Positions 2,353 to 26,224 of a DNA stretch of 32,038 bases are shown here, piece by piece. The DNA comes from Aequorivita sp. (GTDB lineage: Bacteria > Bacteroidota > Bacteroidia > Flavobacteriales > Flavobacteriaceae). The stretch is taken from NCBI GenBank assembly GCA_026646335.1, contig JAPKFY010000019.1, positions 1 to 32,038 on the forward strand. Reading direction: 5' to 3'. The notes under the pieces were generated by a model. The model ran no database searches. It was not told where the DNA came from and worked only from the letters and a program-made list of their open reading frames with translations. How positions within the stretch are numbered: position 1 is the first letter of the stretch; every line of letters starts with the position of its first letter. Position numbers and translations under genes: made by a program.

Positions 2353-2366
2353 ATGATAATGGTCAT
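2353..2366. promoter_or_regulatory. FNR/CRP-family-type box upstream of norC; -7-like box TTATTTTG at 2389-2396
   Basis: ATGATAATGGTCAT (TGA-N6-TCA), 22 bp before the -7-like box; norC ATG at 2444. Confidence 0.7.
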
Positions 2367-2443
2367 ACTCCATATTCACTGATTGTTTTTATTTTGTTTT
2401 AAGATTTAAAAGTCTTAATATACTTAACTTTAAACCAACCAAT

Positions 2444-2902
2444 ATGCTATCCAAACAACAAGCGCGGGCGTTTTTCTTAGTAGGAACGTTCGTAACCTTT
2501 TTGATTTTTATTGGCCTCACCATTTATTCCTTCAGTGATGGGCAAGATCAAACCAACTATGAAAACATTACACCTCAAGTAGTGCGAGGAAAAGTTATCT
2601 GGGAACAAAACAACTGTATGGGCTGCCATACCATTCTTGGCGAAGGCGCCTATTATGCGCCCGAACTTACCAAAGTTGTTGAACGAAGGGGTGAAGGCCT
2701 CATTAAGGCAATTTTGATGTCTCCCGTTGCCTGGGAACCAAACGGCCGAAAAATGGTCGCCTATGGCTTTACTGCCGAAGAAGCCGATGACGTTATTGCC
2801 TTCTTTAACTGGATAGGCGAGATAGACCTAAACGGCTTTGACCGCATTGTATCGCCTTTGGCAAAAGACAAACAACTACTTAATAAACAACCAGAAAATT
2901 AG
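2444..2902 (+). CDS. norC: Nitric oxide reductase cytochrome c subunit
   Basis: N-terminal TM anchor, NNCMGCHTILGEGAYYAPEL heme c motif, directly followed by norB. Confidence 0.93.
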   Translation: MLSKQQARAFFLVGTFVTFLIFIGLTIYSFSDGQDQTNYENITPQVVRGKVIWEQNNCMGCHTILGEGAYYAPELTKVVERRGEGLIKAILMSPVAWEPNGRKMVAYGFTAEEADDVIAFFNWIGEIDLNGFDRIVSPLAKDKQLLNKQPEN

Positions 2903-2906
2903 TATT

Positions 2907-4256
2907 ATGAAATATAAATCTCAAAAAGTAGCCTATTGGTTTTTTGCCCTATCAATGCTACTGCTCGTATTGCAGTTGACCTATGGTTTCATTATGGGTT
3001 TCGCCCGTATTGGGATGGACGGCCTGCACGAATATATTCCTTTTAACACGGCACGCGCCGTTCACACAAACCTACTTGTGGTTTGGTTGCTCTCCGGTTT
3101 TATGGGCGCCGCTTACTACATTATTCCCGAAGAAGCACAACGCGAACTCGTAAGTGTAAAATTGGCCTACGTTCAATTAATTTCCCTTGCATTGGTAGGC
3201 GTTGCCGCCATTGTTGGGTTTCACTTTAATATATGGGAAGGACGAAAGTTTTTGGAAATTCCGCATCAACTAGACTACCTTGTGGTAGCGAACGTTTTGC
3301 TGTTTTTGGCGCTTATTCTCTTGACACTTTTTAGAGGAAAAAGAAAAACTACAACGGCTTTGGTCCTTACTATGGGCTTGCTGTTTGCAGCTTTGCTCTA
3401 TTTGCCGGGAATGTTGCCATTTGACAGTCAAGTAACCGATAGTTTTTTCCGCTGGTGGGTAGTTCACCTTTGGGTTGAAGGCGTTTGGGAGCTTATTATG
3501 GGTGGTATTCTCGCCTTCCTATTAATTAAGCTTACCGGTGTGGATCGTGAGGTTATTGAAAAATGGCTCTATGTAATCGTAGGGCTTACTTTCCTTTCGG
3601 GCGTTCTTGGTACTGGTCACCACTATTACTATATAGGTGTAAACAAAATTTGGCTTGTTGTAGGTGGAATTTTCTCTGCGCTTGAGCCTTTAGCTTTCCT
3701 TGCAATGGCGCTTTTTGCTGTAAACATGTATCGCAAAGGTGAAAAGAAACACCCAAACAAAATTGCGCTGTTTTGGACGCTTGGAGCTGCCATTGTATCC
3801 TTTGTTGGTGCTGGACTTTTAGGCTTTGCGCATACATTGCCACAGACCAATCTCTACACCCACGGAACCTTGGTTACCGCAATGCACGCCCACTTGGCTT
3901 TTTGGGGCGCTTATGCAATGATTGTATTGGCTATCATTAGCTACAGTCTTCCCAATATGACCGGACGCAAACTGTATGACGGAACTCGCGGTCGCTTTGC
4001 TTTTTGGACCACCAATATAGGGATGATCGGGATGACGATGGCCTTTGGTGTAGCGGGTGTAGCACAAGTCTATCTAGAAAGAAAATACAAACTGGATTTT
4101 ATGGAAGTACAAAATGAAGTAAGCATCCACTTTGTGGTATTATTGCTTTGTGCCAGTTTGTTTGCCGTCGGAATTTTAACCTATATATACGATTTCTACA
4201 AACACGGTCTCCCTACGGATGAAGCTTTGGAGCCCGAGGAGAACAATTTTTTATAA
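2907..4256 (+). CDS. norB: Nitric oxide reductase subunit B, canonical cNOR type
   Basis: Start reassigned to ATG 2907 (MKYKSQK). Helix II RAVHTN, helix VI VVHLWVEGVWE, helix VII GTGHHYYYIG, helix X THGTLVTAMHAHLAFWG. Confidence 0.95.
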   Translation: MKYKSQKVAYWFFALSMLLLVLQLTYGFIMGFARIGMDGLHEYIPFNTARAVHTNLLVVWLLSGFMGAAYYIIPEEAQRELVSVKLAYVQLISLALVGVAAIVGFHFNIWEGRKFLEIPHQLDYLVVANVLLFLALILLTLFRGKRKTTTALVLTMGLLFAALLYLPGMLPFDSQVTDSFFRWWVVHLWVEGVWELIMGGILAFLLIKLTGVDREVIEKWLYVIVGLTFLSGVLGTGHHYYYIGVNKIWLVVGGIFSALEPLAFLAMALFAVNMYRKGEKKHPNKIALFWTLGAAIVSFVGAGLLGFAHTLPQTNLYTHGTLVTAMHAHLAFWGAYAMIVLAIISYSLPNMTGRKLYDGTRGRFAFWTTNIGMIGMTMAFGVAGVAQVYLERKYKLDFMEVQNEVSIHFVVLLLCASLFAVGILTYIYDFYKHGLPTDEALEPEENNFL

Positions 4257-4262
4257 AAACAA

Positions 4263-4373
4263 AAAAGGCCTGAATTCGGTTACGCTCTTATACCTGAAAA
4301 CCCTGGGAAGTCCAACTTCATATAAAACACTTAAAGTTTTCTTTCCAAAAAAAAACCGTTTTTCAGGCCTTTT
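4263..4373 (+). other. Intergenic structured segment closed by a 12-bp inverted repeat
   Basis: AAAAGGCCTGAA (4263-4274) pairs perfectly with TTCAGGCCTTTT (4362-4373); inner CGGTT/AACCG and GAAGT-cca-ACTTC helices. Confidence 0.55.
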
Positions 4374-4380
4374 AAATAGA

Positions 4381-4416
4381 CTGTTTATCTTGAGCGAAGC
4401 CGAAAGACTTGAACAG
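4381..4416. repeat. REP-like palindromic element (Bacteroidetes TGAGCGAAG-CGAA type)
   Basis: CTGTTtatCTTGAGCGAAGCCGAAAGacttgAACAG; TGAGCGMAG-YCGAA core shared with the element at 10602-10633. Confidence 0.5.
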
Positions 4417-4437
4417 ACAATTTAATATTGAAGAATT

Positions 4438-5280
4438 ATGGCAACAACAGAAACTATAAATACAAAACCAAAGGCGAAGATTTCTACTGAGGAAGTTTCG
4501 GGGAAAGGAATTATTCCTTTCTACAAACCCGTTCACCGCGAGATTGAAGTTTTTCAACACGCTTTCAAAAACAGATTGCCAATATTGCTGAAAGGTCCCA
4601 CAGGAACTGGAAAGACACGTTTTGTTGATTATATGGCACATCAGTTGGAGCAATCGCTCATAACCGTTTCCTGCCATGAAGAAACATCTTCCACAGACCT
4701 TATTGGGCGTTATATCATCAAAGGCGCAGAAACCATATGGGTGGACGGCCCGTTGACCAAAGCTGTGAAAGAAGGTGCCATTCTATATTTAGACGAAATA
4801 GCCGAAGCCCGCCCAGATGTAATTGTTTCAATACATTCACTTACAGACCATAGAAAGGAACTTTATATAGACAAACTAGGGATTACCGTGAAAGCCCACC
4901 CAGATTTTATGCTCGTGGCGTCTTTCAACCCTGGTTACCAAAAAGGATTTAAGGAACTAAAACCTTCCACCCGTCAACGTTTTGTGGCGCTTTCCTTTCA
5001 TTATCCAACTGCAAAGGACGAAACTGAAATAGTGGCAACTGAAACCGGGTTGGACAATGACACTTCAAAAAAACTGGTAAACATTGCCCACAAAATTAGG
5101 AATCTTACCGAATTAGGACTTACCGAAACCGTCTCCACCCGTTTGTTGGTTGATGCAGCAATGCTTATAAACAGTGGTCTTCCGAAGCGACTTTCCGTGA
5201 AAGTGGCAATTGTGGAACCTTTGACAGATGATCTTGAAATTACCCAAGCGCTAACAGATTTGTGCGATTTGATGATTTAA
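4438..5280 (+). CDS. norQ: NorQ/NirQ/CbbQ-type AAA+ ATPase
   Basis: Walker A GPTGTGKTRF, Walker B AILYLDEIAEA, located between norB and the VWA gene. Confidence 0.9.
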   Translation: MATTETINTKPKAKISTEEVSGKGIIPFYKPVHREIEVFQHAFKNRLPILLKGPTGTGKTRFVDYMAHQLEQSLITVSCHEETSSTDLIGRYIIKGAETIWVDGPLTKAVKEGAILYLDEIAEARPDVIVSIHSLTDHRKELYIDKLGITVKAHPDFMLVASFNPGYQKGFKELKPSTRQRFVALSFHYPTAKDETEIVATETGLDNDTSKKLVNIAHKIRNLTELGLTETVSTRLLVDAAMLINSGLPKRLSVKVAIVEPLTDDLEITQALTDLCDLMI

Positions 5281-5289
5281 GCCAAAGCC

Positions 5290-7059
5290 ATGTTCGAACC
5301 CGATGAGTTTATCTTTGCCAAGGTTGCAAAATTCCTAAAACACCGAAAAAAAAGTGCGAAGGAAGCAATTGCGCACACCGTAAAACTTAGCGAAATAAAA
5401 CCTCGGCTAACATTGGTAGCTCGCGCCGTTACAGGCCATGCAATAGAAATATTTGAGGCGGAACGCGAGGGTGGCTACAAAAACAACAGCTTCTTTTTGC
5501 CCGAACGCTTTTCAGGTTTTGACACTTCAGAAAACAATCTTGCATTTTATATTTTTAGGACGCTCTATCTTTCCATCCAGAAAAGTTTCCATCTCAATTA
5601 TGAATTGGGTGATGAACATACTTTGGAAGAAGCCCAAAAAATTTCCAAAGAGAATTCTGAAAAAGTCTTGAAGGAAATTTTCAACCAATTCCCGGGAACG
5701 GAGCAGATTTATACTGAATTATTGGTTCTAATTGAGGAAAATACTTCGGAAAAAAATCCACCCGATTATTCCTTTATTTATGGGAAATGGATGGAGAATT
5801 CCCCCGAAATTCCAAAGAAAAAAGTGCTTCAGAATATTTCAGAAAAAGTGAAATCCGCCATTGAAGAGGAGATAAACACCATTTTGAAAGCCAATGCGGT
5901 GGAAGAAATAAAATCCATTGAAGTTGATAAAAAGGCGCAGGAAGACTATGTACTTACCCATAACTTTGAAAAAGCAGAAACCGCAGAAGAATGGGAGGGC
6001 GGTTGGCGCGATTTTGATGGCGAGGACGAACTGGACGACCACGCCAATGCGCTGGAAGATTTGAATATGAAACAAACCGTGCGGGTGGATGATCCCACAC
6101 ATTCCATCTATCAAGCGGATTTTATTGAAAATACCACAATTTCAGAAAGTGCTGAAATTGCGACCACTGCCCATCATATTTTTTATGACGAATGGGATTG
6201 TTCCAAACGGGTTTATAAACCGGATTTCTGTAAAGTTTTTCCGCAAACGCAAACCGAAATCGATTCTGATTATTACAAAAATACCCTCCGAGAGAACGCT
6301 TCTACTTTGATGGGATTGCGGAAAATGCTCACTTCGGTAAACAATAAATATCAACAGCAACGCAGGCAATTGCAAGGCGAGGAATTTGATCTCGACGCAT
6401 TGACTGATTTATATGTGGACGTCCACACGGGGCACACGCCTTCGGAAAACATATATCTCTCAAAACGGAAAAAAGAAAAAGACCTTTCCATTTTAATGCT
6501 TTTGGACAGCAGCCTTTCCAGCGATGGATATGCCGATGGAAACAGGGTGATAGATGTTGAAAAACAGGTTTCCATCCTTTTTGGGGAAATTTTGGATGAA
6601 TTCAACGTGGATTTTTCCATCGCCGGTTTCTATTCCAAAACCCGCAACCACAGCACTTACTTGACTTTAAAGGATTTTGATGAACCGTGGCAAAAGGCAA
6701 GGCACAAAGTTGGCGCATTGCAGCCCAGCGGTTATACCCGAATTGGTACTGCGCTGAGACATTCTGGTGCTTTACTGGACAAACGCGACACAAAAAACAA
6801 ATGGGTGATCCTAATTTCAGACGGAAAACCCAACGATTACGATAAATACGAAGGTAAATACGGCATCAACGATGTGAAACAAGCACTTCGGGAATTGAAC
6901 CAGCGGAACATAAATTCGTATGCCTTGGCCATCGAAGCGCAGGCAAAATATTATTTGCCGCAAATGTTTGGGCAAAACCATTTCCAGATTTTGACTACGC
7001 CTGTGGAATTGCTGCAATCGCTGGTAAAATTGTACGATAAAATAAAACACCAAAGCTGA
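5290..7059 (+). CDS. norD: NorD-type VWA-domain protein (NOR activation)
   Basis: C-terminal VWA with MIDAS-like LLDSSLSSDG and ISDGKPNDYDKYEGKYGINDVKQAL; follows norQ. Confidence 0.9.
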   Translation: MFEPDEFIFAKVAKFLKHRKKSAKEAIAHTVKLSEIKPRLTLVARAVTGHAIEIFEAEREGGYKNNSFFLPERFSGFDTSENNLAFYIFRTLYLSIQKSFHLNYELGDEHTLEEAQKISKENSEKVLKEIFNQFPGTEQIYTELLVLIEENTSEKNPPDYSFIYGKWMENSPEIPKKKVLQNISEKVKSAIEEEINTILKANAVEEIKSIEVDKKAQEDYVLTHNFEKAETAEEWEGGWRDFDGEDELDDHANALEDLNMKQTVRVDDPTHSIYQADFIENTTISESAEIATTAHHIFYDEWDCSKRVYKPDFCKVFPQTQTEIDSDYYKNTLRENASTLMGLRKMLTSVNNKYQQQRRQLQGEEFDLDALTDLYVDVHTGHTPSENIYLSKRKKEKDLSILMLLDSSLSSDGYADGNRVIDVEKQVSILFGEILDEFNVDFSIAGFYSKTRNHSTYLTLKDFDEPWQKARHKVGALQPSGYTRIGTALRHSGALLDKRDTKNKWVILISDGKPNDYDKYEGKYGINDVKQALRELNQRNINSYALAIEAQAKYYLPQMFGQNHFQILTTPVELLQSLVKLYDKIKHQS

Positions 7060-7060
7060 T

Positions 7061-7645
7061 ATGGCTGATACTCTTAAAATAGATTACAAAAATGTTTTTT
7101 ACCCGCCGGGCGGGATATTGATGTGGATTGTTATTTACCTCGAACTCGTTACTTTCGGGATTGCCTTGGTCTTTATGGCGCTGAACGCAAGAGCCGAACC
7201 AGAGATGTTTCACGAGTCGCGTTTGCTTTTAAATACCGCTTACGGAGCAATCAATACTGTCTTCCTCCTTAGCAGTGGTTGGTGCATGGCGCAATCTGTG
7301 CATTTTCTGAAGAAAGGAAATTTCAGCAAAAGCAAATTATTTTTAAATCTAACTATTCTTGGAGGCTTTCTATTTCTCGCTTTAAAGAGTGTGGAATATT
7401 ACGATAAAGTGGAAGCCGGACTTACCATTGGCTATAATGATTTCTTTGGGTATTATTGGATGCTTACCCTGTTTCACGTGGTTCACGTAATTGTGGGAAT
7501 TGTGATTTTAGCATTGTCCGCAAGAACACTCCGCAAAAAACCTGAGACCCTAAAAATTGAAGATTACGAATCAGGCGCTACCTTTTGGCATATGTGCGAT
7601 TTGATTTGGCTACTGCTTTTCCCAATAATCTATTTACTGTTTTAA
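7061..7645 (+). CDS. Cytochrome c oxidase subunit III family / NorE-like protein
   Basis: Multi-TM CoxIII-like protein (FHVVHVIVGIVILALSARTLR, ATFWHMCDLIWLLLFPIIYLLF) in the nor operon. Confidence 0.8.
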   Translation: MADTLKIDYKNVFYPPGGILMWIVIYLELVTFGIALVFMALNARAEPEMFHESRLLLNTAYGAINTVFLLSSGWCMAQSVHFLKKGNFSKSKLFLNLTILGGFLFLALKSVEYYDKVEAGLTIGYNDFFGYYWMLTLFHVVHVIVGIVILALSARTLRKKPETLKIEDYESGATFWHMCDLIWLLLFPIIYLLF

Positions 7646-7647
7646 AT

Positions 7648-7881
7648 ATGGAAAGAAGTTTTAATATTACTTGGATATTTTTAATAGCTCTTACAATATT
7701 AACAGCCGTTTTCGCTAATCTCGATATGAAATATATCGCTATTATAATTCTTGGGCTGGCATTTCTGAAATTTATAGGAGTGGCGTTTTTCTTTATGGAA
7801 CTGAAAAAGGCGAATGTTTTTTGGAAAGTGCTTCTTGTAGCGTTTTTGGGGTTGTTGCTTACTGTTGTTTGGGCGGTTTAA
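7648..7881 (+). CDS. Small CoxIV/NorF-like membrane protein
   Basis: Start reassigned to ATG 7648 (MERSFNITWIF). FLKFIGVAFFFMELKKANVFWK is typical of short subunit IV-like proteins. Confidence 0.7.
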   Translation: MERSFNITWIFLIALTILTAVFANLDMKYIAIIILGLAFLKFIGVAFFFMELKKANVFWKVLLVAFLGLLLTVVWAV

Positions 7882-7895
7882 AGGTTCATCATCAT

Positions 7896-7924
7896 CTTTG
7901 ACAAAGTTTAAAACTTTGTCAAAG
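7896..7924. terminator. Perfect 29-bp palindrome between convergent genes (bidirectional terminator-like)
   Basis: CTTTGACAAAGTTT-A-AAACTTTGTCAAAG, abutting the stop of the minus-strand gene at 7925. Confidence 0.65.
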
Positions 7925-9982
7925 TTAATCTCCAATCTTTATACGTGCATCCACCGCTGTAATAGCCTTTTGCGTGCCAATCAATGGATTGAGATCCATT
8001 TCCGTGATTTCTGGGGCGGCTTCCGCCAAAGCGGAAAGCCTCTGGATAATATCCACAAATTGGTTTTCGTCCACACCCTGTTGGCCTCTCGCACCTTGAA
8101 TAAGTTTATAACCGCGAAGTGATTGCACCATTTTCTGTGCTTCTTCTTTTGATATGGGGCTTAATCCGGCAGCCACATCATTTAGCACTTCAATAAAAAT
8201 GCCACCCAAACCACAAAGAATGGTGTGGTTGAAACCAGGTTCTTTTATTACGCCCACAAACAATTCCAGTCCCGCCAATTGTGGCTGCACCATAACCGCC
8301 TTAGCGGAATCTATTTTCATCAATACATCAAAAGTTTCCGAAACTTCTTCTTTGGAAGTAATATTCAGCACCACACCTTTAGCGTCTGATTTGTGAAGCG
8401 GACCAACCACTTTCATCACCACTGGAAATTCCATGGAATCCATCGCGGCGAGCAATTTTTCTTTTGAATCTTCAACAATTTCCTTTACCCTTGGAATTCC
8501 TGCGGCGTCCAATAACTTTTCAGTTTCCGCGGCATTCAGATAGCCTTCAGGAGCAGGATCAATAACGGAGCGAATTTTTTTAATGTCTATTTTCGGAAGT
8601 GCAATCTTTTCTGAAATTGGTTCTGGTGTATTGAAAACCTGGGAAAGCGCTTTCCCCAAAACCACTTCGTCGGGAAAATTGATATGCCCTTTTTTCAAAA
8701 ATGATTGAATTTCGCGCTGTGCGTTCACCACGGAAGGCAATACGGGGAAAATTGGCTTGTTGCAGATTTCCAATTTCACACTCAAAACATTGTAAACATT
8801 TTCAACGTCGAAGAGCCCGGGACTGCCAAAAACCACGGCCATTGCGTCTATATTTTCAAATTTGTGTTCACAGTAATCGATGATGATGCCCAGCTGTTCC
8901 GCTGTTCCCGTGGCTAAAAAGTCTATGGGATTGCTAACGGACGATCCTGGGTAGAGGAACGACTTCAACTTTTCTGCATCAGGCCCTGATATTTCGGGAA
9001 CTTTTAGGCCTCCTTTTGAAAGCTCATCGGCCAGCATCACTGCAGAGCCACCCGCGTGGGTAATGATGGCGATGTTTTTCCCAACCAATTTTTTATAGTT
9101 GAAAATGGAAGCTACGCTCAACAGTTGCTCGCGGCTGCTGCAATAAACAATTCCCGCTTTGTTGAACAGCGCTCTCACCGTCATATCGCTACTGGCGATA
9201 GCACCCGTATGCGAAGTGGCGGCACGGCTGCCTTCCGCGGTACTTCCTGCTTTGATAGCCGCTATTTTCGCACCTTTTTTTATGAGTGATGAAGCGTGTT
9301 TCAATAGTTTTTTAGGGTTGGAAATGGTTTCCAAATAAAGCAATTTTATCAACGGGTCTGTTTCGGCGTTGAAATGTGTGTCCATATATTCCAAAATATC
9401 CTCAACACTTGTCTGTGCCGCATTTCCAACTGAAAATACATTTGCAAACGAAACGCCCAAAGCCATTCCCGCTTCCATAATAAAAACTGCAGTGGCACCC
9501 GAACCTGAAATTAGGTCGCAACCTTTCGGATTGAATTGTGGCACTGGAGCTGTAAAAACACCTTTGTAATTTTCAGTTATAACGCCTATACAGTTGGGGC
9601 CAATCAAACAACCTTTCACACTGTTAACCGTTTCTTTAATTTCCTCTTCCCATTGCTTTCCTTGTTCGTCACCTTCACCAAAACCTGCAGAAATTATGAT
9701 GAACGCTTTGGTGTTTTTTTCTTCTGCCAAAATTTTTACGGTCTCAGGACAAAATTTGGCGGGAATTGCAAGAATGGCCAGTTCTGTTGGTGGAATATCC
9801 TTTACTTCCGAATAACTTTTAATACCCTGTACCTTTTCTTCTTTTGGGTTAACAACGGACAAACTTCCACGGAAATCACCAGAAATGATGTTTTTCAGCA
9901 TATTGCCTCCAGGTTTTTTAGCATCGTTGGAAGCGCCTATTACTACAATGGATTTTGGATCGAGCAGTTGTTTGTTGACCAT
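7925..9982 (-). CDS. ADP-forming acetyl-CoA synthetase (acetate-CoA ligase, fused alpha/beta)
   Basis: CoA-binding and succinyl-CoA-ligase-like domains (VVIGASNDAKKPGGNMLKN, GPNCIGVI, ATSHTGAIASSD) plus C-terminal ATP-grasp. Start taken as internal Met MVNKQLL. Confidence 0.87.
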   Translation of the reverse strand: MVNKQLLDPKSIVVIGASNDAKKPGGNMLKNIISGDFRGSLSVVNPKEEKVQGIKSYSEVKDIPPTELAILAIPAKFCPETVKILAEEKNTKAFIIISAGFGEGDEQGKQWEEEIKETVNSVKGCLIGPNCIGVITENYKGVFTAPVPQFNPKGCDLISGSGATAVFIMEAGMALGVSFANVFSVGNAAQTSVEDILEYMDTHFNAETDPLIKLLYLETISNPKKLLKHASSLIKKGAKIAAIKAGSTAEGSRAATSHTGAIASSDMTVRALFNKAGIVYCSSREQLLSVASIFNYKKLVGKNIAIITHAGGSAVMLADELSKGGLKVPEISGPDAEKLKSFLYPGSSVSNPIDFLATGTAEQLGIIIDYCEHKFENIDAMAVVFGSPGLFDVENVYNVLSVKLEICNKPIFPVLPSVVNAQREIQSFLKKGHINFPDEVVLGKALSQVFNTPEPISEKIALPKIDIKKIRSVIDPAPEGYLNAAETEKLLDAAGIPRVKEIVEDSKEKLLAAMDSMEFPVVMKVVGPLHKSDAKGVVLNITSKEEVSETFDVLMKIDSAKAVMVQPQLAGLELFVGVIKEPGFNHTILCGLGGIFIEVLNDVAAGLSPISKEEAQKMVQSLRGYKLIQGARGQQGVDENQFVDIIQRLSALAEAAPEITEMDLNPLIGTQKAITAVDARIKIGD

Positions 9983-10058
9983 ATTTGCGAAAAAATTAAA
10001 ACGAAATCGACTCAATATCGAAGGTAAGCGAATTTAAAAGATACTTCCATCTTAAAAA

Positions 10059-10072
10059 CTGATAAAAGTCAT
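10059..10072. promoter_or_regulatory. FNR/CRP-type box, possibly bidirectional
   Basis: CTGATAAAAGTCAT; 22 bp to TATTTTTA (10095-10102, +) and 22 bp to TAAATTCG (10036-10029, -). Confidence 0.65.
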
Positions 10073-10124
10073 ATTTTTGGCAATTGTGAAGAGGTATTTT
10101 TAACGACAATTATGGTATTTCGAA

Positions 10125-10565
10125 ATGTCCACTGATTCAAGACCTTACATATTTGTAATTGCAATTTTACTTGCCCTATTTGGCTTTTACAATTACGTTG
10201 TTTACAACACTGATGGCTATGTTGCCGTTGAAAAACTATCGCCAACTGCAGTAAAAGGCCAACAATTGTTCCAAAGCAACCGTTGCTGGTCCTGCCATCA
10301 ACTTTACGGTTTGGGCGGTTATCTTGGACCAGATTTGACCAATATATATTCTTCCGAGGGCAAGGGTCCCAACTATATAAAAGCATTTTTAAACAGCGGT
10401 GTGAAAAGTATGCCACAGTTTAATTTTTCCGAAGAAGAAAAAGATGCGTTGGTGGAGTATCTGAGGCTGGTGGATGAAACAGGAATCTACCCCAACTACG
10501 ACGCCGAAATTGAAGCCTCGGGATGGGTAAAAATCAAGTATCGAAATGAAACATCCAAGGATTAA
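10125..10565 (+). CDS. Membrane-anchored cytochrome c, NorC-like paralog
   Basis: N-terminal TM, NRCWSCHQLYGLGGYLGPDLTNI heme motif; paired with the NorB-like protein downstream. Confidence 0.85.
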   Translation: MSTDSRPYIFVIAILLALFGFYNYVVYNTDGYVAVEKLSPTAVKGQQLFQSNRCWSCHQLYGLGGYLGPDLTNIYSSEGKGPNYIKAFLNSGVKSMPQFNFSEEEKDALVEYLRLVDETGIYPNYDAEIEASGWVKIKYRNETSKD

Positions 10566-10601
10566 TTTTTAAACACATAGCGGAATGACTAATTGGATGT
10601 T

Positions 10602-10633: not shown

Positions 10634-10660
10634 GCTTAAAAAAACAAATATTATAGGCAG

Positions 10661-11986
10661 ATGAATAGTAAGGCCCCGATTTATTTTCTGGTATTTGCGA
10701 TGATCGCATTATTTTTGGGAATGTTCTTCGGAATGACCGCATCATTTCAATATTTGATGCCCGAATTTTTAAAAGAACAGATACCCTTTTCAAAACTGCG
10801 CCCTTTTCACGTTACATCGGTCATTTCATGGATTGTGCTCAGCGCTACGGGCAGCATCTATTTTTTCCTTACTTATGTTGAAAAATTCAAGCTTTTCTCG
10901 CCTTTGTTAGCGAAGATTCACTTCATCATTTTTCTCTTAACGGGCATCGTCATATATTTTTCGTTTGCTTTTGATTTTACGGAAGGGCGCGAGTATTTTG
11001 CCTTTGCACCAATTTTGATAATTCCTATTTTAATTGGTTGGATATTGTTCGGCATCAATTATTTCAAGACACTTTACGCCAATATGAGGGGCTGGCCCAT
11101 CTATTTTTGGATGTGGGGCACGGGCATCGCCTTTATGTGTTACCATTTGATGGAAGCGCACTTTTGGCTGTTCGATTTTTTTAGGCTGAATTTCATAAAG
11201 GATTTTTCCGTGCAATGGAAATCAACCGGTTCGTTCACGGGTTCGTGGAATATGCTGGTTTATGGAATTTCTATTTATTTGATGTCCAAAATAAAGAAGG
11301 ATAGCAATGTGGCTACAAACAAGGCCGCTTTTTTCTTTTACTTCTTGGGACTGACCAATTTGATGTTCGGCTGGGCGCACCACACCTATCTCTTGCCCAC
11401 ACAACCCTGGATTCGCTATGTGGCGTACGGTATCAGTATGACGGAGTGGATTGTTTTGGCATCGATCATTTACAACTGGAAAAGCTCGGTTTTAAAGGTT
11501 GAAAAGGATAATAATCCAATGGCATACCGTTTTTTACTGGCCACGGATTTTTGGATTTTTATAAATATCATTCTCGCATTGTTGTTTTCCATTCCCGCCA
11601 TCAATTTCTTTACGCACGGCACACATATAACGGTGGCACATTCCATGGGAACAACTATCGGGATTAACACGACAATTCTTTTTTCAGCATTATTTTTTAT
11701 AGTACATCAGCTTTATCCAGACTTTAGAACAGATAGAAAATGGGTGAAAAGAGGTTTTGTTTATTTCAATATTTCATTATTTATATTTTTTGTTTCCCTC
11801 ATAATTGCGGGAGCTAAAAGAAGTTATTGGATGTTTGTTTTAAAAGAGGGGGCATTTTCTGAAATGCAGGATTCGCTCATTCCATATTACATTTCGTTTT
11901 TTATCTTCGGGATTGCAATTTTCGTTTCGCTATCGATTGTAGCATACCCTTTATTCAAAGCATTTCTTCAAAAAATTAAATCATAA
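10661..11986 (+). CDS. NorB-like heme-copper oxidase superfamily protein with altered ligands
   Basis: By-eye alignment to the window's NorB: helix [16 protein letters not shown], helix [14 protein letters not shown], helix [20 protein letters not shown]; helix VI HLWVEG replaced by TGSFTG. Confidence 0.8.
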
Positions 11987-11988: not shown

Positions 11989-12918
11989 ATGATGGATCTA
12001 CATCAAAAAATAACCGAACTAAAAAAGAAAAAAAACGCCGTTATCCTTGCGCACTATTACCAAGTGCCCGAAATTCAGGAAGTGGCGGATTATGTGGGTG
12101 ACAGTTTGGGCCTTTCGCAAAAAGCGGCTGAAACGGATGCGGAGATTATCGTCTTCGCAGGTGTTCATTTTATGGCTGAAACCGCCAAAATATTGAACCC
12201 CACAAAAAAAGTTTTATTGCCCGACTTGATGGCGGGCTGTTCCTTGGCAGATTCTTGTCCGGCGGATGCTTTTCAGAAATTAGTTGAGGCCCATCCAGAC
12301 CATACGGTGATTACTTACGTTAATTGCTCTGCGGAAGTAAAAGCTTTAAGCGATATTATTTGCACTTCTTCCAATGCCGAAAAAATAGTGAATTCCGTTC
12401 CGAAAGATGTACCCATTATTTTCGCACCCGATAAAAATTTAGGAAAATATATCCAGAAAAAGACTGGAAGAAAAATGCTGCTTTGGGATGGCGCTTGCAT
12501 TGTGCACGAAGCATTTTCAATGGACAAACTTTTGAAGCTTTACAAAGAAAATCCCGGTTCCAAAATTATTGCACATCCAGAAAGTGAAAGCCATATTTTA
12601 GAAACAGCGACCTATGTCGGTTCCACTGCTGGCATGATTGATTATGTGAAAAAACATCCAACGGAAAAATTTATTGTAGCCACCGAAGCCGGAATCCTTC
12701 ATAAAATGCAGCAGGAAGTGCCGGAAGCCGATTTGATTCCCGCGCCATCAGAAGAGGACAACACTTGCGCCTGCAGCGAATGTGCTTTTATGAAAATGAA
12801 CACCTTGCAAAAATTGTATGACTGTTTGCTGAACGAAACCCCGCAGATAGAGGTTTCTGAAGAAATACGAAAAAAAGCTATTCTGCCAATTGAGCGAATG
12901 CTGGAATTATCAAAGTAA
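11989..12918 (+). CDS. nadA: Quinolinate synthase
   Basis: [58 protein letters not shown]. Confidence 0.96.
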
Positions 12919-15226: not shown

Positions 15227-15240
15227 CTGACCAATATCAT
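15227..15240. promoter_or_regulatory. FNR/CRP-type box upstream of acetyl-CoA hydrolase; -7-like box AACCTTTG at 15263-15270
   Basis: CTGACCAATATCAT, 22 bp before AACCTTTG; gene start at 15319. Confidence 0.55.
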
Positions 15241-15318
15241 TTATAAAACGCAATAGATACCCAACCTTTGCATCTTCATTCTCCAAAGCCTTGATGGTGG
15301 AGTAAAAAAATTAAATTT

Positions 15319-16584
15319 ATGCAAATCGTTTCTGCCCAAGAGGCTGTATCTATAGTAAAATCAAATGATCGTGTTTTTTTTCAGGGAGCCGCAATGACGC
15401 CCAATCTGTTGATAGACACTTTGTGTGAAAGATACCGTGAACTGAAAAACGTTGAGATAATCCAAATCCATACCCATGGGGATGCAAAATATACCGTTGC
15501 TCCATATACCGAAGCTTTCCAGCTTGCAAGTTGCTTTGTGGGCGATAATGTTCGGAAAGGTGTAAATACTATTCACGGAGATTATATTCCTGTTTTTTTA
15601 AGTGAAATCCATTGGCTCTTCAGAAGAAATATTCTGCCGCTGGATGTTGCTTTCATTCAGGTTTCGCCACCGGATAAGCACGGCTATTGCTCTTTGGGGG
15701 TTTCGGTTGATGTTACTTTGCCTGCCATTCAAACTGCAAAACTTGTTGTTGCGCTCATAAATCCAAATGTTCCCAGAACTCACGGCGACGGAATTATTCA
15801 TATAAAAAATATAGATTTTGGAGTGGAAACAAACACACCAATCTATGCCTCCGTTATAGGAGAACCGACTGAAATTGAGTCTATAATTGGAAAAAATGTT
15901 GCTGGATTGGTTGAAGATGGTGCCACGCTGCAAATGGGCATAGGCAATATTCCAAACGCGGTACTTCACAATTTAGGCAACCATAAAAGGTTGGGAATAC
16001 ATACCGAAATGTTTAGTGACGGGATACTTCCTTTGGTAGAAAAGGGAATTATCACTGGCGAGGACAAAGAAATAAAAACAGGTAAAATAGTTACTTGTTT
16101 TGCGATGGGTACTAAGAAGCTATATGATTTTATTGACGATAACCCAATTGTACATTTTAAAGAAGCAGCCTATACAAATGATACTGCCATCATTCGGAAA
16201 AACCCAAAAGTGACGGCAATTAATAGCGCTATTGAAATTGATTTAACCGGACAGGTCTGTGCCGATAGTATTGGGATGTATCAATATTCCGGCGTTGGCG
16301 GACAGATGGATTTTATCCGAGGCGCTTCACTTTCGGAAGGAGGGAAGCCCATTATTGCTATGCCTTCTATTACCAATAAAGGTGTTTCCAAAATCACTCC
16401 ATTTTTAAAAGAAGGAGCCAGCGTCACTACCACAAGGGCTCACGTGCACTATGTGGTCACTGAATACGGAGTAGTGAATCTTTTTGGAAAAGGTTTGGAG
16501 CAACGTGCAAAAGCACTTATTTCCATAGCACACCCAGATCATCGGGAAACATTGGAGAGGGCTGCGAAACAACGGTTTCACTAA
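15319..16584 (+). CDS. Acetyl-CoA hydrolase/CoA-transferase family protein
   Basis: ISPPDKHGYCSLGVSVD-type motif (QVSPPDKHGYCSLGVSVD), GVGGQMDFIRGA, HVHYVVTEYGVVNLFGKGLEQRAKALISIAHPDHR. Confidence 0.92.
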   Translation: MQIVSAQEAVSIVKSNDRVFFQGAAMTPNLLIDTLCERYRELKNVEIIQIHTHGDAKYTVAPYTEAFQLASCFVGDNVRKGVNTIHGDYIPVFLSEIHWLFRRNILPLDVAFIQVSPPDKHGYCSLGVSVDVTLPAIQTAKLVVALINPNVPRTHGDGIIHIKNIDFGVETNTPIYASVIGEPTEIESIIGKNVAGLVEDGATLQMGIGNIPNAVLHNLGNHKRLGIHTEMFSDGILPLVEKGIITGEDKEIKTGKIVTCFAMGTKKLYDFIDDNPIVHFKEAAYTNDTAIIRKNPKVTAINSAIEIDLTGQVCADSIGMYQYSGVGGQMDFIRGASLSEGGKPIIAMPSITNKGVSKITPFLKEGASVTTTRAHVHYVVTEYGVVNLFGKGLEQRAKALISIAHPDHRETLERAAKQRFH

Positions 16585-17662: not shown

Positions 17663-17700
17663 TTTTTTTTTACAACTATTTATGATAAAAAGGTAAGAAA

Positions 17701-17997: not shown

Positions 17998-18049
17998 GAC
18001 TTCATTAACTTGAATCAGGTTAGAATAATAATAATTTTATAAAATAAAA

Positions 18050-18391: not shown

Positions 18392-18439
18392 AACTTTCAA
18401 TAGTTGAAAAGGTTTGGAGCAAATTAAACAATATTGATT

Positions 18440-19110: not shown

Positions 19111-19144
19111 GTTGTTTCTTATTAGTCCGTAAAAAACACACATT

Positions 19145-19597: not shown

Positions 19598-19635
19598 ATT
19601 GGTTTTCAGATAATTTATTTTAAATAATAACGAAG

Positions 19636-20349: not shown

Positions 20350-20391
20350 TTTTATTTTAGGAAAAGTATTTGATTTTTTAATTTAACAGAA

Positions 20392-20685
20392 ATGGACTAT
20401 ATTCATCGTTTTCTTGCGTTTTTTAAGAATAAAGAGAAAGAAGAGACCAAAGAACCAGTTGGCGAGCAAAATTGTTCTTTTTGTTGGGGTTACCAAGAAT
20501 ATGATGAAAAAATAAGGTTGCTGCCAAAAGATAAGTATATAGATGTGAAAAACCATCAGGATAAATACGTTAAAGTTGGAAAATTTATGATGGAACATGT
20601 GGATGGATTTAAAAATAAAAAGAGAATCGTTGAGCGTTGTCCAGAATGTGGCGGTAAGCGAATTAAATATAAAGAAAACTCTTAA
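20392..20685 (+). CDS. Small hypothetical protein with paired CxxC motifs
   Basis: QNCSFCWGYQEYD ... ERCPECGGKRIKY. Confidence 0.6.
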   Translation: MDYIHRFLAFFKNKEKEETKEPVGEQNCSFCWGYQEYDEKIRLLPKDKYIDVKNHQDKYVKVGKFMMEHVDGFKNKKRIVERCPECGGKRIKYKENS

Positions 20686-20689
20686 ATCT

Positions 20690-21154
20690 ATGGAAAAGAA
20701 AAAACCTATAAAACGCCATAAAGCATTGCAACCGCTGAGTAGACAACATCATTTTGGGCTGCTGTTCAGTTGGAAGATTCGAAAAGGGTTTAGCAAAAAT
20801 ATTGACATCGACCGTATGCAGGAATATGCAAAGTGGTTTTATGAACACGAAATAAAACCCCATTTCAGGGACGAGGAAAAATATCTTTTTCCAATACTTG
20901 AGGAAGACAACGAATTAGTTGAACGCGCTTTGAAGGAACACAGACGAATAATGCGACTGTTTAATGATATAAGAAATCCTGAGAAGTCCCTAAATTGCTT
21001 GGAAGAGGAACTAGATGCTCACATTCGTTTTGAGGAACGCATACTTTTCAATGAAATACAAAAAGTTGCTACTGAGACACAACTTGAAAAAATTGAGAAA
21101 ATCCACAACGGTATAGAAAAATCTCCCGATTACCACGATCCCTTTTGGGAATAA
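20690..21154 (+). CDS. Hemerythrin HHE-domain protein
   Basis: Start reassigned to ATG 20690. SRQHHFGLL, HEIKPHFRDEEKYLFP, KEHRRIM, DAHIRFEERILF. Confidence 0.85.
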   Translation: MEKKKPIKRHKALQPLSRQHHFGLLFSWKIRKGFSKNIDIDRMQEYAKWFYEHEIKPHFRDEEKYLFPILEEDNELVERALKEHRRIMRLFNDIRNPEKSLNCLEEELDAHIRFEERILFNEIQKVATETQLEKIEKIHNGIEKSPDYHDPFWE

Positions 21155-21235
21155 CATCTTTTTATTAAATTATTTTATTTGTTAATTACTAATGAGTTAT
21201 ATGCAAAAATCTATTTCTGATAAAAATGTCATTTT

Positions 21236-21249
21236 ATGATTTAAGTCAT
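21236..21249. promoter_or_regulatory. FNR/CRP-type box upstream of ric; -7-like box GAAATTTG at 21272-21279
   Basis: ATGATTTAAGTCAT, 22 bp before GAAATTTG; gene start at 21305 (or 21311). Confidence 0.65.
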
Positions 21250-21304
21250 ACTTTATTACTTTTTTTCTAATGAAATTTGCGTCATTATTATTCATTAAAA
21301 TTAT

Positions 21305-22036
21305 ATGACAATGACAACACTTCAAGAACGAACCGTAGCCGATGTGGTTACCGAAAACATAAAAGCTGCACACATTTTCAAAAAACACGGCATAGACTTT
21401 TGCTGTGGCGGCGGAATCAGCATTAAAAGGGCTTGTGAAAAGGCGAAGATAGATCCTTCAATTTTAGAAGCAGAACTTCTAAATCTGGATACAGTACAGG
21501 ACCGCGCCTATGATTATAACAGTTGGAAACTCGACTTTTTGACGGACCATATCATAAATGTGCACCATCACTACGTTGAGGAAAGCAGCCCATTGCTTTT
21601 GCAATATTCAAAACGTGTAAACCATGTTCACGGACATCATTATACTGAACTTGCGGAGATAGAGAGTTTGGTAACAAAGGTTGTTCAGGAATTGGCCGCA
21701 CATTTGAAAAAGGAAGAATTGATACTTTTCCCTTTTATCAAAAAACTTGTAACCGCCGAACGCGAAAACAGCGAAGTGCCCACAATTCATTTCGGTACTG
21801 TTGAAAACCCTATAAAAATGATGGAGGAGGAACACGAGGAAGCTGGCGAGATTTTGCGTAGGATTTCAAAATTGAGCAACAACTATACCCCACCACAGGG
21901 CGCTTGCAACACCTATCGTGCATTTTACGCAAAGCTTGAAGAGTTTGAGCAGGATCTGCACCAACACATACATTTAGAAAATAATATCCTTTTCCCAAAA
22001 GCATTGAATTTGGAAAAGAAACTTAAAAAAAACTAA
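21305..22036 (+). CDS. ric: Di-iron RIC protein (ScdA/YtfE family, repair of iron centers)
   Basis: TVADVVTENIKAAHIFKKHGIDFCCGGGISIKRACEKA plus hemerythrin-like HHHYVEESSPLL and EEEHEEAGEILRRI motifs. Confidence 0.93.
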   Translation: MTMTTLQERTVADVVTENIKAAHIFKKHGIDFCCGGGISIKRACEKAKIDPSILEAELLNLDTVQDRAYDYNSWKLDFLTDHIINVHHHYVEESSPLLLQYSKRVNHVHGHHYTELAEIESLVTKVVQELAAHLKKEELILFPFIKKLVTAERENSEVPTIHFGTVENPIKMMEEEHEEAGEILRRISKLSNNYTPPQGACNTYRAFYAKLEEFEQDLHQHIHLENNILFPKALNLEKKLKKN

Positions 22037-22094
22037 TTCTATAAATTAGTATCCCCATCCCCAAATCTTGATTTTTATTTAATTGGTTTTTAGG

Positions 22095-22152
22095 ACAGTT
22101 CGGAAGTTTGGCAATTATGAATGTTTGCTGCCAAATTCCGGACTGTTTTTTT
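22095..22152 (+). terminator. Long terminator/attenuator-like hairpin
   Basis: ACAGTTCGGAAGTTTGGCA (22095-22113) pairs with TGCCAAATTCCGGACTGT (22129-22146; one G-U, one bulge), followed by a T run. Confidence 0.75.
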
Positions 22153-22163
22153 AATTTTACGGC

Positions 22164-23381
22164 TTGATAGATTTAAAAAAACATATAGGCATAGCCTTGG
22201 CTTATTTTTTGGTCGTAGCATTAATGGGTGTTCTGTTGAGGTTTTATGTTGTTACCTCACTTCCCTTCAATTATAAATTTCTCCTTCACGCACATTCCCA
22301 CACTGCTCTCTTGGGCTGGATTTATTTGGGATTGGCAACCTTGATTTACAAAATTTTTCTTTCTGTAGCAGAAAAATCGAAACATTACAAGCGCATCTTC
22401 CTCTTCACAAATATTTGTATTTTAGGAATGTTAGTAACCTTTCCCATTCAGGGTTATGCATTGTTCTCCATTATTTTTTCAACGCTGTTTTTGTTCGCTT
22501 CCTATTGGTTTGCCTGGTTTTCGATAAAGCACATTCCGCCCCATTTCAAAAATCGTTTTTCTTGGAAACTCATAAAGACTTCGCTTTGGTATCTTGTTAT
22601 TTCCAGCCTTGGGCCGTGGGCTATTGGCGGTGTGATGGCAACCTTGGGCACGGAATCCATTTGGTACAAAACATCCATTTATTTTTATCTTCATTTTCAA
22701 TATAACGGATGGTTTATCTTGGCGCTCTTGGGGGTTTTGTTTTATATTTTTGAAGAAAAGGGAATTCAGTTTGACCCTGAAAAACTGAAATCATTTTTCC
22801 TGCTTCTGAATTTTGGCGTGTTGTTTACCTTATTCCTTTCGGCACTTTGGTTTGTTCCGCCCATTGTTTTTTATTTGGTCGGATTAGCTGGGGCTGTGGC
22901 CCAAGGGCTTGCTTTTTATGAACTTTATTTGCTTCTCAAAGACCATTTTCCTCGCGTACAAAAATCATTTGCACCCGGAGCTTTTTTTCTCCTGAAAATA
23001 GCCGGAGGTTTACTTGTTGCAAAACTGTTGATTCAACTTTTCTCTGCCCACCCATATGTGGCAAGATTGGCCTTTCAGCTAAAAGATTTTGTAATAGGAT
23101 ATCTTCATTTGGTTTTTCTGGGCATCGTAATAACAACATTACTTGCTTTTTTGAACTATTTTAAATTAATAAAAATTCCCAAAAGCTTTATTTGGACCTT
23201 CATTTTTTCTCTTGCAACTACTGAACTTTTAGTCTTTTATAATGCCTTCGCTCTTTGGTTAAAACTTCCGTTTATTTCAAACTATTATATGTTATTGGCA
23301 ATTTTGAGTCTGAGCTTTCCGATAGCGGTGTCAATTCTTTTTTTTAAAAATATCTTTCCGGAGTATTCCAAAAATGGTTAA
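22164..23381 (+). CDS. Polytopic membrane protein with conserved-looking His motifs; possible divergent heme-copper oxidase relative
   Basis: About 12 hydrophobic segments; LLHAHSHTALLGWIYLGLATL, YFYLHFQYNGWFILALLG, VIGYLHLVFLGIVIT. TTG start. Confidence 0.6.
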   Translation: MIDLKKHIGIALAYFLVVALMGVLLRFYVVTSLPFNYKFLLHAHSHTALLGWIYLGLATLIYKIFLSVAEKSKHYKRIFLFTNICILGMLVTFPIQGYALFSIIFSTLFLFASYWFAWFSIKHIPPHFKNRFSWKLIKTSLWYLVISSLGPWAIGGVMATLGTESIWYKTSIYFYLHFQYNGWFILALLGVLFYIFEEKGIQFDPEKLKSFFLLLNFGVLFTLFLSALWFVPPIVFYLVGLAGAVAQGLAFYELYLLLKDHFPRVQKSFAPGAFFLLKIAGGLLVAKLLIQLFSAHPYVARLAFQLKDFVIGYLHLVFLGIVITTLLAFLNYFKLIKIPKSFIWTFIFSLATTELLVFYNAFALWLKLPFISNYYMLLAILSLSFPIAVSILFFKNIFPEYSKNG

Positions 23382-23449
23382 AATTGCTTACATTCAATTC
23401 TTTTATTTGCCACATTTACTGATGTTTATTAACCAATAAATTTCGAGAT

Positions 23450-23659
23450 ATGAAAAAAAACATGGGCGGCCCAGACCGTACAATTCGACTTCTAATAGCT
23501 GCAATTCTGGTGGCTTTGTATTATTTTGATGTTATTGACGGAACTTCGGCTATTGTATTGTTAGTAGTTGCTGCTATTTTTGTTTTAACTAGTTTTATTA
23601 GTTTTTGCCCGCTTTACACACTTTTGGGGGTAAATACATGTAAGGTCAGAAAGGGTTAA
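23450..23659 (+). CDS. DUF2892 (YgaP-like TM) protein
   Basis: NMGGPDRTIRLLIAAILVALYYF ... FISFCPLYTLLGVNTCK. Confidence 0.88.
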   Translation: MKKNMGGPDRTIRLLIAAILVALYYFDVIDGTSAIVLLVVAAIFVLTSFISFCPLYTLLGVNTCKVRKG

Positions 23660-23681
23660 AATAGCGTGATGATTAGGTTTA

Positions 23682-23695
23682 GTGATATTTATCAT
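23682..23695. promoter_or_regulatory. FNR/CRP-type box upstream of ccoI; -7-like box AAACTTTG at 23718-23725
   Basis: GTGATATTTATCAT (TGAT-N4-ATCA), 22 bp before AAACTTTG. Confidence 0.75.
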
Positions 23696-23755
23696 TTTTT
23701 AAAATGTGGACATTACCAAACTTTGCAACAGGTATAACGAGCAAATTTAAGATTG

Positions 23756-26161
23756 ATGGTAAACTGTTTCCATTGCGGCGATCCGTGTTTGGACGTTGAA
23801 ATTAAGCATGAGGAGAAATCCTTCTGCTGCTATGGCTGCAAGACGGTTTTTGATATTCTGCACGACAACGATTTAAGTTATTATTACGATCTTGAAAAAA
23901 CGCCGGGAATTTCTCCAAAGGAAATCGCCGGTAAATATGATTTTCTTGACAATGAGGCCATTGTTGAAAAACTACTTGAATTCAATGACGGAAGCACACA
24001 GATCGTTTCCTTTTTAATACCCTCCATACATTGCAGCAGTTGTATTTGGATTCTTGAAAACCTGAACAAACTTAATCCTGCCGTAAAATCTTCACTTGTA
24101 AATTTTCCTGAAAAGACAGTTCACATAACTTTTACGGCTAAGGAAAATTCACTCAAAAACCTTGTTGTTCTTTTAAGCCGAATTGGCTACGAACCCTACA
24201 TCTCATTAGACGACTCTGAAAAAAAGGAAAAATACATCAACCGAAGCCTTACTTATAAATTAGGTATCGCTGGCTTTGCCTTTGGAAATGTGATGTTCCT
24301 GTCTTTTCCCGAATATTTCGAACATTCTGAATTTTGGTTGGATCAGTTCAAACCCTTTTTCCGCTGGTTGATGTTCGCGTTTTCACTTCCAGTTGTATTT
24401 TATTCAGCAAGCGGATATTTCACTTCGGCCTATAAAGGACTTCGTTCCAAAATCTTAAACATCGATGTCCCCATTGCATTGGGCGTTGCAGTTCTATTTA
24501 TTAGAAGCACCATAGATATTGTGATGGATTTGGGCACGGGCTTTTTCGATAGCCTTACTGGCCTAGTTTTCTTTTTGCTTCTCGGGAAGTTTTTTCAGCA
24601 AAAAACCTACAGCTATCTATCTTTTGTACGCGATTATAAATCATATTTTCCAATTGCGGTTACGAGGCTTTTCAAAAATACAGCAGGAAAAACCGTGGAG
24701 GAACAAGCTGAGGTTTATAACGTGAAAAAAGGCGATCGTCTGCTAATTCGCAACAACGAAATTATTCCCGTTGACGCTATTTTAATCAAAGGAAACGCCC
24801 TTATAGATTACAGTTTTGTTACTGGCGAAGCGGAACCCATTTCCAAGCAAAGTGGCGACAAACTCTACGCTGGCGGCAAACAGCAAGCAGGGATTTTAGA
24901 AGTTGAAGTATTAAAACCCGTAGCGCAGAGCTATTTGACACAGCTTTGGAGCAACGATGTTTTCAGCAAAGACAAAACAGGGATTTTTGAGAATATAACT
25001 GATAGCATTAGCAAGCGTTTTACGGTGGTCCTTCTTTCAATAGCTTTTATTTCAACCATTTTTTGGCTGGTTGTTGATCCTTCAAAAGCATTTAATGTGT
25101 TCACTTCGGTGTTGATTGTGGCCTGTCCATGTGCAATTGCCCTCGCGGCACCGTTCACTTTGGGGAATGTACTGCGCATCTTCGGAAGGGAGAAATTATA
25201 TTTGAAAGAAGCTTCAGTAATTGAACAAATGGCGAAGCTGGACTCCGTTGTTTTTGACAAAACGGGAACGCTTACCACCAATCAAAAAAACCTGATTACG
25301 TATGAAGGTTTGGCGCTTTCTGCGGAAGAAAAGCAATTGCTGACCAGCACTCTTCGTGCATCCAGTCACCCGTTGAGCCGTTCGCTTTATAGTATTCTTG
25401 ATAAAAATGACATCCAAACTTTGGATGATTTTGAAGAAGAAGTTGGAAAGGGAATTTCAGCAACTTTCAACGATAATTCCATAAAAGTGGGTTCGTATGA
25501 ATTTGTTGGGTTTTATGATGAAATGACCTCCGAAGTAAAGAACAAAACCACCGTTCACATCAGTGCTAATCAAGTGTACAAAGGTTGCTACATTTTCAAT
25601 AGTGAATATAGAAAAGGTATTGCGGAACTTTTTGAACAGTTGGGAAATGACAAAGAAGTAATTGTGCTTTCCGGCGATAACGAAGGAGAGCGCAATCGTT
25701 TGGAAACCTTGCTTCCAAAAGGTACATTGCTCTACTTCAATCAAAAACCCGATGATAAACTCAGTTTCATTAAAGACCTTCAGCAAAATGGCAAAAAGGT
25801 ATTGATGATAGGAGATGGACTTAATGACGCTGGAGCGTTGAAGCAAAGCAATGTTGGGTTTGTAATTTCAGAAAACACAAACGTTTTTTCACCTGCTTGC
25901 GATGGTATTTTGGACGCATCCCAATTCAACAAAATTGCTGACTATTTAAACTTTTCAAAAAGTGGGGTTAGGATTATTAAGTGGGCTTTCATCTTTTCTT
26001 TGTTCTACAATTTAATAGGGTTGTCATTTGCCGTTACGGGACATTTAAGACCGGTAGTGGCCGCAATATTAATGCCTTTAAGTTCAATTAGTATTGTTAT
26101 ATTTACAACCGTTGCAACCCAATATATTGGCAAGAAATTAAGAACGGATATAAATAAGTAA
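23756..26161 (+). CDS. ccoI: Heavy-metal P-type ATPase, cbb3 oxidase copper-loading type (CcoI/FixI)
   Basis: N-terminal CFHCGDPC and CCYGC, IVACPCAIALA (CPC), DKTGTLT, GDGLNDAGAL; upstream of ccoS. Confidence 0.93.
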   Translation: MVNCFHCGDPCLDVEIKHEEKSFCCYGCKTVFDILHDNDLSYYYDLEKTPGISPKEIAGKYDFLDNEAIVEKLLEFNDGSTQIVSFLIPSIHCSSCIWILENLNKLNPAVKSSLVNFPEKTVHITFTAKENSLKNLVVLLSRIGYEPYISLDDSEKKEKYINRSLTYKLGIAGFAFGNVMFLSFPEYFEHSEFWLDQFKPFFRWLMFAFSLPVVFYSASGYFTSAYKGLRSKILNIDVPIALGVAVLFIRSTIDIVMDLGTGFFDSLTGLVFFLLLGKFFQQKTYSYLSFVRDYKSYFPIAVTRLFKNTAGKTVEEQAEVYNVKKGDRLLIRNNEIIPVDAILIKGNALIDYSFVTGEAEPISKQSGDKLYAGGKQQAGILEVEVLKPVAQSYLTQLWSNDVFSKDKTGIFENITDSISKRFTVVLLSIAFISTIFWLVVDPSKAFNVFTSVLIVACPCAIALAAPFTLGNVLRIFGREKLYLKEASVIEQMAKLDSVVFDKTGTLTTNQKNLITYEGLALSAEEKQLLTSTLRASSHPLSRSLYSILDKNDIQTLDDFEEEVGKGISATFNDNSIKVGSYEFVGFYDEMTSEVKNKTTVHISANQVYKGCYIFNSEYRKGIAELFEQLGNDKEVIVLSGDNEGERNRLETLLPKGTLLYFNQKPDDKLSFIKDLQQNGKKVLMIGDGLNDAGALKQSNVGFVISENTNVFSPACDGILDASQFNKIADYLNFSKSGVRIIKWAFIFSLFYNLIGLSFAVTGHLRPVVAAILMPLSSISIVIFTTVATQYIGKKLRTDINK

Positions 26162-26163
26162 AA

Positions 26164-26177
26164 TTGATAAATGTCAT
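26164..26177. promoter_or_regulatory. FNR/CRP-type box upstream of ccoS; -7 box TAATTTTG at 26200-26207
   Basis: TTGATAAATGTCAT, 22 bp before a full TAnnTTTG match. Confidence 0.78.
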
Positions 26178-26224
26178 ATTTTAAAGACGTTTACAACGAT
26201 AATTTTGAAAAATAAACTTCAGGT

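Follow-up and report, generated by a model that had tools for sequence, protein, structure and literature searches.

A fixed promoter layout at six genes of the window

Which regulator controls the six promoters that stand before the norC-like, second cytochrome c, acetyl-CoA hydrolase/transferase, ric, ccoI and ccoS genes of this Aequorivita locus, and through which promoter architecture? For the stretch of DNA analysed here (the window, 32,038 nucleotides), a sequence-only reading had proposed an FNR-type regulon in which each TGA-N6-TCAT box is followed at a constant distance by a TAnnTTTG-like -7 box. Checking the six pairs showed that all sequences are present at the coordinates given for them (Table 1), that the spacer between the two elements is 22 nt in all six, and that, as claimed, every -7 box matches at least five of the six defined bases (five at five of the promoters, six at ccoS). 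The annotations of the downstream genes were upheld as well, by family profiles above their cut-offs for CcoS and Ric and by Pfam matches for the CcoI-type ATPase, the acetyl-CoA hydrolase and the cytochromes c. The NAD synthesis gene nadA (window 11989-12918) lies directly 3' of the second cytochrome c/COX1-like pair and adjoins this nitric oxide reductase-like cluster.

Table 1 Predicted promoter elements and target genes in the window
Feature	Sequence	Position	Strand	Basis or remark
norC activator box	ATGATAATGGTCAT	2353..2366	+	sequence check and orthologs; predicted site
norC -7 box	TTATTTTG	2389..2396	+	5/6
norC-like cytochrome c, target		2444..2902	+	Pfam Cytochrom_C
NorB-like COX1 protein, after norC-like gene		2838-4256		
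Second cytochrome c gene activator box	CTGATAAAAGTCAT	10059..10072	+	sequence check; predicted site
Second cytochrome c gene -7 box	TATTTTTA	10095..10102	+	5/6
Second cytochrome c, target		10125..10565	+	Pfam
COX1-like protein, after second cytochrome c		10661-11986		
Acetyl-CoA hydrolase/transferase gene activator box	CTGACCAATATCAT	15227..15240	+	sequence check; predicted site
Acetyl-CoA hydrolase/transferase gene -7 box	AACCTTTG	15263..15270	+	5/6
Acetyl-CoA hydrolase/transferase, target		15319..16584	+	Pfam
ric (iron-sulfur repair) activator box	ATGATTTAAGTCAT	21236..21249	+	sequence check and orthologs; predicted site
ric -7 box	GAAATTTG	21272..21279	+	5/6; first base non-T in most boxed ric orthologs
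Ric/YtfE-type iron-sulfur repair protein, target		21305..22036	+	TIGR03652 above cut-off
ccoI activator box	GTGATATTTATCAT	23682..23695	+	sequence check and orthologs; predicted site
ccoI -7 box	AAACTTTG	23718..23725	+	5/6; first base non-T, conserved in ccoI orthologs
CcoI-type metal ATPase, target		23753..26161	+	Pfam
ccoS-ccoNO activator box	TTGATAAATGTCAT	26164..26177	+	sequence check and orthologs; predicted site
ccoS-ccoNO -7 box	TAATTTTG	26200..26207	+	6/6
CcoS, first gene of cbb3 oxidase operon, target		26225..26452	+	TIGR00847 above cut-off
CcoNO fusion, target by operon		26466..28667	+	COX1 and FixO

The bare half-sites would by themselves be compatible with a chance or compositional artefact, as the 14 occurrences of TGAN6TCA in the window are no significant excess over the 9.2 expected (nine of 100 shuffles reach 14). 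Because this unenriched motif is nevertheless coupled to the -7 box, the signal of the window is the spacing. Indeed, TGAN6TCAT followed at spacer 22 by a -7 box with at least five matches was found seven times, namely the six pairs and the reverse reading of the ric palindrome, whereas none of the remaining spacers between 10 and 35 gave more than one pair, and 300 dinucleotide shuffles of the window averaged 0.07 pairs at spacer 22 and never exceeded 1. Together with the reversed pattern, the orthologs and the 296 genomes described below, these counts practically dismiss an artefact.

The spacing holds across the host genome and Bacteroidota

In the host genome (3.05 Mb, 163 contigs, 94.4% complete) we scanned for the strict pattern TGAN6TCA-N23-TAnnTTTG, in which spacing 23 is counted from TCA and equals 22 from TCAT. 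The scan, which the earlier reading had called for, returned 20 strict matches compared with one for the reversed pattern. Over 31 spacings there were 52 matches, 20 of them at spacing 23 and 32 distributed over the other 30 (Poisson p about 2e-17 versus the mean of spacings 11-20). Strict sites lie just 5' of hemN (family profile above cut-off), 5' of a cytochrome c gene with a divergent universal stress protein gene, and upstream of a second universal stress protein, the ribosome hibernation factor HPF and a PEP synthase whose gene is paired with a divergent dodecin-like one. Further strict sites precede, among others, the genes of a YceI-like lipoprotein and of a flavoprotein resembling thioredoxin reductase; gene names lacking family-profile support were read from the translated sequence. 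Two or three strict matches (L006, L019 and perhaps L007) look like chance occurrences.

The same box/-7 layout recurs across Bacteroidota. Among 80 cco loci from other, named genomes, mostly Flavobacteriaceae (the nearest being from Aequorivita, with 93% CcoNO identity), spacing 23 after TCA gave 80 matches versus 1.7 per other spacing, and half-site spacing N6 gave 80 matches versus none or one for other half-site spacings. Conservation in orthologous promoters, a test set beforehand, was passed at ccoS, ccoI, norC and ric: the best -7 box stands at exactly spacing 23 in 54 of 60, 35 of 50, 19 of 24 and 7 of 10 boxed promoters, respectively, where ties were assigned to spacing 23, which gives these four counts a slight lean and leaves the strict cco-locus counts unaffected. 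The ric arrangement is also kept in L085 and L086. Across 296 Bacteroidia genomes, this spacing yielded 1574 matches, compared with 361 on average for each of the others.

Comparison of the ccoI promoters of cco loci L085-L138 and of the ric promoters L248-L262 showed that nearly all boxed orthologs (in ric, most) begin the -7 box with G, A or C rather than T, with the remaining bases kept, whereas ccoS orthologs retain T. The proposed -7 consensus thus describes the six pairs and is incomplete, since the ccoI and ric boxes are conserved off-consensus at their first base. This deviation may be a conserved weakness that makes the promoter activator-dependent.

The box occupies a predicted class II position

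Class II activation by CRP and FNR is already known: in E. coli, their sites are centred at -41.5 on a TGA-N6-TCA-type palindrome that overlaps the -35 position, and such promoters render microaerobic genes activator-dependent. For Flavobacterium psychrophilum, the main text of PMC9723704 describes mapped starts that place TAnnTTTG at -12 to -5. A spacer of 22 combined with this -7 position puts the 12-mer box at -47 to -36 and its centre at -41.5, the class II position, so that the class II geometry suggested earlier for the Bacteroidetes promoter context is supported by the fixed spacer and the published -7 position. With the start placed by analogy to F. psychrophilum, the Bacteroidota sites resemble the E. 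coli ones in palindrome type and centre; they differ in the core promoter, with its TAnnTTTG -7 box, and in that the register was computed class-wide and holds with several regulator types. F. psychrophilum, with the same -7 box, is also similar in that its cbb3 oxidase and haem synthesis genes are induced by oxygen limitation (PMC9723704). The main text of that paper contains neither "Crp" nor "Fnr", and no mention of an activator box was found for the induced genes.

In the mechanism we propose, a dimer of the CRP/FNR superfamily would bind TGAY-N4-RTCA centred at -41.5, replace the -33 element and hold RNA polymerase on the often weak TAnnTTTG -7 box, which would make a single helical register obligatory. 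The data support a regulon of the CRP/FNR superfamily and, as the sequence-only reading had expected, a regulator acting in trans.

Receiver-CRP fusions are likely activators in the host

Four host proteins pass the cut-off of the HTH_Crp_2 profile, and two of them are receiver-cNMP-HTH_Crp fusions (contigs C104 and C119). Each of these fusion genes lies directly 3' of a PAS histidine kinase gene, and in relatives a kinase gene is found directly 5' of the fusion gene in 39 of 40 loci. All 42 fusions compared carry an E-x-x-I-R recognition helix, and the Glu and Arg of TGA-reading helices are present in these proteins as well as in the FNR-like proteins described below. Like two-component response regulators, the fusions combine an adjoining kinase gene with the receiver residues (phospho-Asp in 41/42, Thr/Ser in 42/42, Lys in 39/42); the R-S/T-A motif of the cAMP pocket, by which a cAMP-CRP would be recognised, occurs in 0/42.

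Sites cluster around the fusion genes themselves. In 40 neighbourhoods of up to 20 kb, reaching about 10 kb from the fusion gene, we found 39 strict sites versus 1.57 expected from the genome-wide density in the same genomes. The neighbourhoods of the host fusions hold several sites, one of them 24 nt downstream of the fusion gene on C119. Among sites near fusions with a box at spacing 45, 21 of 23 also have one at 23, which corresponds to tandem boxes 22 bp apart with centres at about -63.5 and -41.5 (neighbourhoods L177-L216). Such tandems are common in other families, and no complete tandem box in the 22-bp register was found in the host genome. A single box per promoter therefore describes the host and fails for many relatives, where two boxes stand in tandem near fusion genes.

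The six sites are probably class II sites of one microaerobic/NO regulon, with the two host fusions as its most likely activators. Speaking against this reading are the single sites of the host as opposed to the tandem boxes of many relatives, a third host regulator with an E-x-x-I-R helix, and the share of fusion-only genomes with individually significant spacing, which is only 47%. Upon a low-oxygen (or NO) signal, the PAS histidine kinase would control the CRP-type activator by phosphorylating its receiver, without a separate FixJ/FixK step, and the activated fusion would bind the boxes.

A further host protein with an E-x-x-I-R helix, a short CRP-type protein on contig C13, could be the activator instead, and genomes with this type and no fusion have a spacing ratio of 4.0. 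However, the C13-type protein occurs in only 38 of 296 genomes, its helix reads GQRVETVIR rather than GTATE-x-x-IR, most genomes with it and without a fusion also carry the FNR-like protein, and no copy was detected in G271, a genome with 20 sites; this candidate is accordingly a quite improbable one. Other CRP-type candidates were set aside: the C122 Crp-type protein has two boxes nearby but a recognition helix (SRVVVSR) without Glu, and two PF13545 matches below the cut-off look unlike Crp (L043) or have a different layout (L044).

A four-cysteine FNR-like protein probably reads the same box in relatives

A second spacing peak in the cco loci, at 9-10, drew attention to a further regulator, a Crp-type FNR-like protein that is encoded divergently from ccoI in 34 Flavobacteriaceae-type loci (intergenic examples include L094, L101, L113, L120 and L121); it has four invariant cysteines (4, 7, 53 and 106 in L117) and the recognition helix GTATES-x-IR, the same as that of the fusions. 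The ccoI box is flanked on both sides by promoter elements of the FNR-like gene, a repressing position, which suggests that one predicted box may activate ccoI and, by overlying the FNR-like promoter, provide built-in autorepression. In many relatives, the four-Cys protein would thus read the same box, alone or with a fusion.

The regulator had been classed as FNR-type, and this part of the proposal needs revising for the host: it has no detectable four-Cys ortholog and instead encodes the two receiver-CRP fusions with the same recognition helix. A classical Cys-containing FNR-like protein could nonetheless drive the regulon and be missing from the assembly, with the fusions regulating other genes. 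The shared, promoter-overlying ccoI box in the 34 relatives speaks for such a protein, as do Flavobacterium-type genomes that have the FNR-like protein, lack the fusion and keep the boxes; and since the assembly is 94.4% complete, absence from the host is not certain. Against this, no match at 1e-34 was obtained in the host genome or in G151 and G238, two genomes of the same family that keep both boxes and fusions, no four-Cys FNR-like protein emerged from a PF13545 scan of the host, the gene is absent beside ccoI in the window, and the fusion genes are ringed by sites. The combination of an N-terminal Cys cluster and a central Cys in a CRP fold, which marks a 4Fe-4S FNR, was likewise not found in the host. 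We therefore regard a missing FNR-like protein as unlikely, and the likely host activator is a CRP-type protein under kinase control, not a classical FNR.

Regulator content and spacing enrichment vary together. The fusion was detected in 146 of 296 Bacteroidia genomes, and, with FNR-like and fusion matches split at 1e-40 guided by open-frame length, spacing enrichment was 1.6 in genomes with neither protein, 4.5 with the fusion only, 3.9 with the FNR-like protein only and 8.1 with both, co-occurrence counts whose independence is overstated because the genomes are phylogenetically related. Genomes individually significant at p<0.01 made up 7%, 47%, 47% and 96% of these groups, respectively. 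Within the genus g26, ratios computed by hand were 3.0 with neither (3 genomes), 8.4 with the fusion only (4) and 12.6 with both (4).

The kinase signal and related systems

The axial His of haem-binding PAS domains is also seen in PAS domains whose ligand is unknown. The best solved relatives of the PAS domain in the C119 kinase, a candidate haem-PAS sensor, are DosP (E 2e-18) and FixL; in the alignment with DosP, His67 of the kinase matches His77, the haem ligand, and Arg87 matches Arg97. Counted by alignment, since a haem-PAS regular expression missed most kinases, the axial His is present in 38 of 38 aligned kinases and the distal Arg in seven of 38, the distal residue being mostly Met, Ile or Leu. 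In Mariniflexile (L090), a C119-type kinase gene is divergent from ccoI.

Oxygen is the likeliest signal and NO a possible one. A general respiratory-stress regulon run by the same fusions, in which the kinase senses NO, redox state or membrane energy rather than oxygen, is sizeable as a possibility though clearly short of probable: axial His and distal Arg occur together in only 7/38 aligned kinases, norC and ric are among the targets, and the second host kinase (L045:8780-12049; about 1089 residues) combines several PAS domains and a GAF domain with a LOV-like domain whose photoactive cysteine is replaced by glycine (NGQFLQ). The His/Arg alignment of the C119 kinase with DosP, its FixL relationship and the low-oxygen genes cbb3 and hemN argue instead for oxygen. 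Tentatively, with a probability not far below even, we propose that a haem-PAS kinase and a receiver-CRP activator form a one-step oxygen relay, in which FixL-FixJ-FixK would be collapsed into two proteins, and that its DNA code is shared throughout Bacteroidia with an independent Cys-based FNR-like sensor, each able to replace the other.

In rhizobia, a PAS-kinase route (hFixL-FxkR-FixK) and an FNR route (FnrN) converge upstream of fixNOQP, and a single box can serve as the activator site of one gene while overlying the start of a divergent gene (PMC7888657). The Bacteroidota loci resemble this arrangement in the predicted convergence of both routes upstream of a cbb3 oxidase and in the box shared with a divergent gene; they differ in that a single polypeptide unites the receiver with the CRP-type DNA-binding protein, and in their boxes and core promoter. 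No description of the phylum-wide rule, the shared code or the fusion as likely activator was found in full-text searches of open-access literature, an absence that is no proof of novelty. Little has been described of how Bacteroidota regulate genes in response to oxygen and NO. The promoter rule is exact enough for reading regulons from sequence class-wide, in gut, marine and fish-pathogen species, and names candidate regulators for deletion. Two sensor types exchanged on one DNA code would also offer a clean case of regulatory rewiring.

On host contigs C56 and C136 (L050, L051), near PEP synthase and other genes, several boxes of a GC-rich subclass, TGACCTGGRTCAT, lie close together, in contrast to the AT-rich boxes at cco; one of the two host fusions may prefer this subclass.
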